This document shows positions 50,644-51,102 of a DNA stretch of 64,000 bases, piece by piece; position 1 is the first letter of the stretch; each line of letters starts with the position of its first letter. The translations under genes were made by a program, and so were the position numbers. The notes beneath the pieces are model-generated. The model did not search any database, had not been told where the DNA came from, and was given only the letters and a program-made list of their open reading frames with translations. This stretch comes from an uncultured Ilumatobacter sp. Its GTDB lineage: Bacteria > Actinomycetota > Acidimicrobiia > Acidimicrobiales > Ilumatobacteraceae. The stretch lies in contig CAJQPY010000007.1 of NCBI GenBank assembly GCA_905480335.1, forward strand, positions 1 through 64,000, read 5' to 3'.

Positions 50644-50649
50644 TACGCT
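50644..50649 (+). promoter_or_regulatory. -10 element of the HesB-like selenoprotein gene
   Basis: TACGCT fits TANNNT and ends six bases before ATG 50656. No ribosome-binding site is present, so a leaderless transcript beginning at or near the ATG is likely. The small gene would thus be expressed independently of rne, which ends 53 bases upstream of the hexamer. Confidence 0.5.
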
Positions 50650-50655
50650 GGCCTC

Positions 50656-50967
50656 ATGCAGATCGTGTTCACCGAAGAAGCGCAGAAGTTGCTCCAGAAG
50701 AAGGGCGGGTCGATGTCGATCGACCTTATTAACCCGACCGGTTGAGGCAAAGTCGCTGAGGTGTCGGTCGACACTAACGTTAGAGGCAAGAACCTGGCCC
50801 CGTACCGCAAGCTGCGTCACGACCAGTTCAAGATCCTGATCACGCCGCAACTGATCGGTATGGCCGAGTCGTTGCGGGTTGTCGCGAAGGGCTTCATCTC
50901 GAAGAAGCTAATGGTCGAATTCCAGGCCGTGCCGGGGACCAACGACGGCGGTTGCGAGGTCTGCTGA
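50656..50967 (+). CDS. HesB/IscA-like protein with probable selenocysteine at codon 30
   Basis: The frame from ATG 50656 to TGA 50965 codes 103 residues if TGA 50743-50745 is read as selenocysteine. Before it: MQIVFTEEAQKLLQKKG and SMSIDLINPTG. After it: GKVAEVSVDTNVRGKN ... GMAESLRVVAKGFISKK and a Cys-rich end GGCEVC. In IscA (SGCSGMAY ... CGCG) the first conserved Cys sits exactly where the UGA falls, and the end pair matches the CxC. HesB-like selenoproteins are a known prokaryotic family. A SECIS-like hairpin starts 15 bases after the UGA. The likely role is a Fe-S-carrier- or redox-like protein. Ordinary gene calling would give only a truncated ORF. Confidence 0.82.
50756..50783 (+). promoter_or_regulatory. 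Bacterial SECIS-like stem-loop
   Basis: GTGTC (50761-50765) pairs with GACAC (50770-50774), closing the loop GGTC; a G-U pair (50760/50775) extends it. CTGA (50756-50759) can pair with TTAG (50780-50783) below a 4-base bulge. The loop begins 20 bases after the UGA, within the 16-37 range of bacterial SECIS elements, and starts with G as the consensus requires. The GGUC loop also occurs in the E. coli fdhF SECIS. Confidence 0.65.
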
Positions 50968-50978
50968 CCATTTTCCCA

Positions 50979-51011
50979 CGCCCGGGCGACCGCCGGGACG
51001 AGGCGTCTCGT
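50979..51011. other. Structured spacer before rplU
   Basis: CGCCCGGGCG (50979-50988) is a palindrome and ACGAG-GCGT-CTCGT (50998-51011) is a 5-bp hairpin with a four-base loop. They lie between the selenoprotein stop and rplU. They could end the selenoprotein transcript or form part of an L21 leader. No U-tract is present. Confidence 0.3.
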
Positions 51012-51102
51012 GGCCAAAGCGGAACTTGCGGGCGTGACGTCGGTTGGGACTACTCGCAGAGGTGTCGAGCGATGATTTGAGCCGATAGCGTTGCACATCG
51101 CT

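Follow-up and report, generated by a model that had tools for sequence, protein, structure and literature searches.

A very probable selenocysteine form of an iron-sulfur carrier-like protein in Ilumatobacter, with an apparent second selenocysteine in distant relatives

Two described groups of selenoproteins lie closest to the gene reported here. The HesB-like selenoproteins (TIGR01911), which carry the motif UxGP (PMC13188914), include a Methanococcus maripaludis protein that has been labelled with 75Se and whose function is unknown (PMC11097638); the CC/Se motif family (NF041239) has a single selenocysteine (Sec) in a CxxU arrangement (PMC13188914). Bacterial SECIS elements have been described as hairpins with a loop of 3-9 nt bearing a G in its first two positions, a stem of 4-16 bp, a distance of 16-37 nt from the UGA, and an MFE of -7.5 or lower (PMC13188914). 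Our literature search found no paper linking Ilumatobacter to selenoproteins. Here, we describe a small, overlooked gene between rne and rplU in a 64,000-nucleotide stretch of DNA from an uncultured Ilumatobacter sp. (the window) that very probably encodes a protein resembling iron-sulfur (Fe-S) carriers, with Sec at the key Cys of its relatives; some distant relatives appear to carry a second Sec near the end of the protein. The features are collected in Table 1.

Table 1. Features of the gene in window coordinates, and homologous loci with a candidate second selenocysteine
Feature	Position	Strand	Basis or remark
Predicted selenoprotein gene, 103 aa	50656..50967	+	UGA as Sec30; stop UGA 50965-50967
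UGA codon 30, predicted selenocysteine, IscA Cys35 column	50743..50745	+	TGA at 90/90 loci; TGC/TGT in L143-L145; hhalign column match
C-terminal C100-E-V-C103	50953..50964	+	C100 invariant in alignment A5, where the aligned position is C or U in relatives; Sec/Cys exchange
-10-like box TACGCT, putative leaderless promoter	50644..50649	+	Six bases before ATG; TANNNT in 24/75 distinct homologues
Putative SECIS hairpin G-GTGTC-GGTC-GACAC-T, within the EVSVDT codons	50760..50775	+	Wobble-level conservation; compensatory changes; loss in Cys homologues; bacterial SECIS criteria
Double-selenoprotein candidates, mostly U-x-H-stop	Chloroflexi-labelled bins: L058, L062, L073, L074, L077, L091		
Double-selenoprotein candidates, mostly U-x-H-stop	Acidimicrobiia and relatives: L024-L027, L029-L031, L034, L036, L037, L064, L071		

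The frame translates as MQIVFTEEAQKLLQKKGGSMSIDLINPTG-U-GKVAEVSVDT...GGCEVC-stop. To understand whether the part after the UGA is maintained as protein, we compared the window gene with two of its close relatives, which belong to the Ilumatobacteraceae: L020 and L039, the latter from Ilumatobacter nonamiensis and 77% identical. Because synonymous changes predominate after the UGA in the three pairs of close relatives that these form (dN 0.10-0.13, dS 0.49-0.80, ratio about 0.15-0.27), this stretch is maintained as protein. The comparison thus indicates that coding continues past UGA-30 under purifying selection, in line with the initial annotation, which had noted coding similarity on both sides of the codon. 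Ordinary gene calling would cut the members of this group short at the UGA.

Homologues were collected by two routes. In a protein search of the class, 20 of 296 genomes proved to carry the gene, and every match contained one TGA. A pattern scan of contigs that omitted codon 30 returned 72 loci, drawn from Acidimicrobiia, Nitriliruptoraceae, and bins labelled Chloroflexi, Acidobacteria, and others. Together these provided 90 readable loci, some from the same genome, and 80 are distinct. Codon 30 is TGA in all 90, in Actinomycetota, Chloroflexi-labelled and other bins alike; because the pattern behind the 72 loci left that codon free, sequence conservation of the TGA goes beyond chance. The scan pattern was EVSVDT, and the invariance of this motif in the scan set is therefore partly by construction; the motif also holds in the pattern-free protein search, where the single exception is QVSVDT in L029.

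A contig scan with a pattern requiring Cys at codon 30 gave no match, as the codon is TGA. Three close homologues with Cys were found by a search of the phylum with the alignment as query: codon 30 is TGC or TGT in L143 and L144, and TGC in L145. In the first two, the hairpin described below is replaced by GAG GCC GCG/GCC ATC GAC ACC (EAAIDT), and L145 reads EIAFDT; where Cys takes the place of Sec, therefore, neither the hairpin nor the EVSVDT wording survives. Two of the three genomes with a Cys homologue lack selA (G428 and G467), and the third has it (G448). A further protein without a stop at the site, L146, is a more distant CC-motif protein. Across the homologues, then, codon 30 holds Sec or, in three cases, Cys, and never an unrelated residue.

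The initial annotation had pointed to a stem-loop with a GGUC loop starting 20 bases after the UGA, and this hairpin is present (core GTGTC-GGTC-GACAC at 50761-50774, loop at 50766-50769) and falls within the published bacterial description, with its GGUC loop, 6 bp stem, 20 nt distance, and MFE of -12.3 for 48 nt. Its folding-energy z-score in the window is by itself unimpressive (z = -1.0; that of L108 is stronger, z = -3.5); support for the hairpin comes from comparison. Specifically, the six codons GAG GTG TCG GTC GAC ACC are almost fixed at their third positions, with a codon entropy of 0-0.35 bits and a top codon at 94-100% in 72 dereplicated sequences, compared with 0.58-1.76 bits in the other conserved columns, the UGA column aside. 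The hairpin DNA is identical, wobble positions included, in 73 of the 80 distinct sequences (GTGTCGGTCGACAC), and the remainder read GTGTCGGTCGATAC, GTGTCAGTTGACAC, GTGTCAGTTGATAC or GTATCAGTTGATAC, with the stem kept in every one. Two of these pair through compensatory changes, GTATCAGTTGATAC altering both sides of one pair, and the G-C flanking the loop GU becomes A-U in 5 of the 20 rows of alignment A4. Altogether, 99.3% of the hairpin cells are paired, and 7 cells are changed on both sides compared with 1.9 after shuffling.

The initial annotation had also required SelA, SelB, SelD, and a tRNA-Sec, and all four are found in the genome (G000, Ilumatobacteraceae; 2.95 Mb, 94% complete). The tRNA-Sec scores 66.5 bits, above its cut-off, and ARAGORN agrees; selB (275 bits) adjoins selA (399 bits) on contig C6. 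The selD gene (366 bits) has an in-frame UGA of its own (SHGAG-U-GCK), and its product is probably itself a selenoprotein. A hairpin, AGCTCGCC..GGCGAGCT, follows the UGA of this selD (L017, G000:C31:56738-57658). Among the genomes of the class, selA is above its cut-off in all 20 that carry the homologue and in 200 of 296 overall, the 20 being related and hence not 20 independent cases. Because selA is this common and the window-type gene occurs in only 20 of the 296, other selenoproteins probably maintain the Sec trait in the class.

These observations bear on the simplest alternative, in which UGA-30 is an ordinary stop and the locus is a pseudogene or a 29-residue open reading frame. The genome does use UGA as a normal stop, and the gene itself ends in one; however, an ordinary stop would sit badly with TGA at every homologous locus, the low dN/dS that follows it, the wobble-frozen hairpin, the complete Sec machinery, and the existence of Cys homologues. 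We reject this alternative on the comparative data and consider its probability next to nil. We are instead highly confident, from the sequence comparisons, that the gene encodes a stand-alone 103-residue selenoprotein of the HesB/IscA fold in which UGA-30 is read as Sec, a confidence that concerns its identity and does not extend to the metal role. Comparative evidence supports the selenoprotein, the SECIS, the fold, the equivalence of the ligand position, and the exchange of Sec and Cys at both of the sites discussed here, and from it we infer that Sec is actually inserted in cells.

The initial annotation had proposed a HesB/IscA-type protein, with the UGA on the first conserved Cys of that family, and structure prediction agrees. 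The AlphaFold2 model, built with 68 homologues (pLDDT 85, pTM 0.74), has the order strand-helix-strand-strand-strand-strand-helix-strand-strand; its last five residues are unconfident (pLDDT under 50). When compared with the PDB by VIA-align, its best matches are to IscA/SufA (Z 8.8 and 8.7; for 1x0g_C, Z 8.8, rmsd 3.5, 93 residues aligned), and the top ten entries, Z 8.8 to 5.8, are nearly all of IscA/SufA type or from Fe-S biosynthesis, with the next unrelated entry at Z 3.1. Profile matches to IscA are moderate (75-88%); the hhalign comparison with an IscA/ErpA alignment reaches 88% (E 3.5e-6) and pairs codon 30 with Cys35, the Cys of GCSG. Alignment A3 combines two E. coli rows (IscA and ErpA) with eleven rows translated from loci.

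Placement in a known family is another matter. Pfam gives no match for the window protein (Fe-S_biosyn matches one member only, E 0.02), and a search of PDB by sequence gives none. The initial annotation had called this a HesB-like selenoprotein of an established family; the HesB/IscA fold with Sec stands, and membership in that family does not, as TIGR01911 (cut-off 66.35 bits) has no match at E up to 1 among the 19 rows of alignment A1 or at E up to 0.1 among the 68 rows of A5. We therefore reject it; a search of the window's own genome likewise found no TIGR01911 member. The sole NCBIfam match of the window protein is NF041239, at 26.0-26.1 bits (E 7e-6) and thus below the cut-off of 40 bits; 67 of 68 relatives match this model at E up to 0.1. 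Judged by these profiles, the group is a HesB-fold selenoprotein group adjacent to NF041239 and distinct from the established HesB-like family. A Cys-form NF041239 member that is over the family cut-off occurs in the same order (L111, genome G083; NGCCGG).

What is new here is the behaviour of a second position. Each of the 68 proteins in the alignment has one C-terminal residue, C or U, in the column of the window's C100, and among homologues this predicted ligand position alternates between Cys and a second UGA that is accompanied by a hairpin in the 3'UTR. The codon there is TGA in 24 loci, of which 18 are distinct, with x-His-(x)-stop after it and a longer tail in L077. The hairpin after this second UGA usually has a GGUC-like loop, as in L029 (GGAGCACC-GGTC-GGTGCTCT), and reaches 13 bp in L030. 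Of the 18 distinct UGA members, 17 have a stem of at least 6 pairs at a loop distance of 16-25; the same criteria pick out 5 of the 21 distinct Cys members (Fisher 1e-5) and 6 of 31 members that have an ordinary TGA stop (Fisher 4e-7). With the loop required to be exactly GGTC and the stem to have at least 4 pairs, the counts are 8 of 18 UGA members and none of the 21 Cys members. On the tree, the C-terminal Sec/Cys label requires 5 changes, at least 3 of them forced by supported branches. These patterns suggest that the relatives with a second UGA are probable double selenoproteins with two SECIS elements.

Could the window's own terminal UGA at 50965 also be read as Sec, which would make this member a double selenoprotein too? 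The aforementioned relatives, with their second near-C-terminal UGA and its own hairpin, provide a precedent, and the last codon is UGA in most close relatives. However, the downstream length and sequence differ even between relatives that are 78-79% identical, and C100 already occupies the second site; the window clade has CxxC or C-x-x-stop here, the window member having CxxC. Because comparison with relatives finds neither conserved sequence nor a GGUC hairpin 3' of this codon in the window, we take it to be read as a stop and reject Sec at this position as very improbable.

The gene also seems to have a promoter of its own. The initial annotation had suggested a leaderless start on the basis of the box upstream of the ATG, and 24 of 75 distinct homologues likewise have TANNNT 5-7 bases upstream of the start, compared with 1.8 expected and a maximum of 6 in 500 shuffles, with a spacing of 6 the commonest. 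Shine-Dalgarno-like motifs are modestly above shuffles (18 versus 10). Neighbours are clade-specific, with rne and rplU in the Ilumatobacteraceae and other genes elsewhere, and among the homologue neighbourhoods there is no constant neighbour that points to Fe-S assembly or to an operon partner. Because the spacing of the box recurs, and in agreement with the changing neighbourhood, the gene is probably transcribed leaderless from its own promoter. Downstream, at 50965-51025, a GC-rich inverted repeat (CCCGG..CCGGG) 3' of the stop is a possible terminator that is not kept in relatives.

These results have mechanistic implications. We propose that SelB and tRNA-Sec would decode UGA-30 by means of the GGUC-loop hairpin that overlaps the EVSVDT codons, and that Sec30 and Cys100 (with Cys103) would form a chalcogen site on a fold like that of the A-type carriers, which might bind and then hand on a metal ion or an Fe-S cluster. 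Relatives would use Sec for the second ligand as well (U-x-H-stop), and Sec-x-His with a nearby HxH would fit metal ligation. Because the C-terminal residues of the model are unconfident, the geometry of this site is only predicted. We put a metal or cluster role for the protein at a little short of an even chance. A more specific version, in which selenols stand in for thiolates at one ligand position of the IscA fold or at both, a metal ion or Fe-S cluster is held by Sec, and the window gene is the single-Sec form of a family whose full form is the double selenoprotein with two SECIS elements, is more tentative and, in our view, somewhat unlikely.

The main rival to a metal or cluster site is a redox pair, in which the same selenoprotein would use Sec30 and Cys100 (or Cys103) as a couple on an IscA-like scaffold, as a selenenylsulfide oxidoreductase or a peroxide scavenger. 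Most selenoproteins are redox proteins (PMC13188914), the two conserved chalcogen positions each exchange Sec and Cys, and most clades do not keep IscA's CxC pattern. In contrast, the fold is that of Fe-S or metal carriers, and many members have a His close to the second site (HxH..U-x-H), as metal sites do; we consider a redox couple somewhat unlikely. If metal ligation by Sec were true, the group would offer a natural Sec-ligated cluster carrier.

Independent of its function, this group adds selenoproteins that lack a model to Actinomycetota and Chloroflexi-labelled bins. With both ligand positions of the IscA fold swapping Sec and Cys, it is a ready test set for asking whether a carrier protein can use Sec to ligate a metal or an Fe-S cluster; with SECIS DNA that hardly varies even between distant clades, and hairpins whose presence or absence tracks that of the UGA, it is also a natural test set for bacterial SECIS rules.

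How does the group compare with known systems? The double-UGA relatives resemble UXX-star and other C-terminal-Sec selenoproteins in placing Sec two or three residues before the stop codon, and for this reason their second SECIS lies in the 3'UTR; none of the corresponding NCBIfam models matches. The NF041239 family (Moorella type) is of similar size, its profile matches the window protein over nearly its full length, and one double-UGA relative from a Chloroflexi-labelled bin (L077) is over its cut-off at 41.8 bits; however, the window protein has no Cys directly before Sec, as the Cys-form member has in NGCCGG, and the group has G-U-G plus a second Sec/Cys site. The TIGR01911 proteins are HesB-related and contain Sec, and the M. 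maripaludis protein is, by name, the nearest experimental case, although they have one Sec only and UxGP where the window group has UG[KG]. Finally, the A-type carriers IscA, SufA, and ErpA (PF01521, TIGR00049) differ in their C-terminal CGCG motif, which is CEVC in the window protein and CRH or UxH in its relatives, and in sequence, identity being about 10%; the genome's own Cys-type TIGR00049 protein is encoded elsewhere (G000:C6:25447). Despite these differences, the window protein shares their predicted fold, places Sec30 on Cys35, and carries a C-terminal Cys around the position of Cys99/101.
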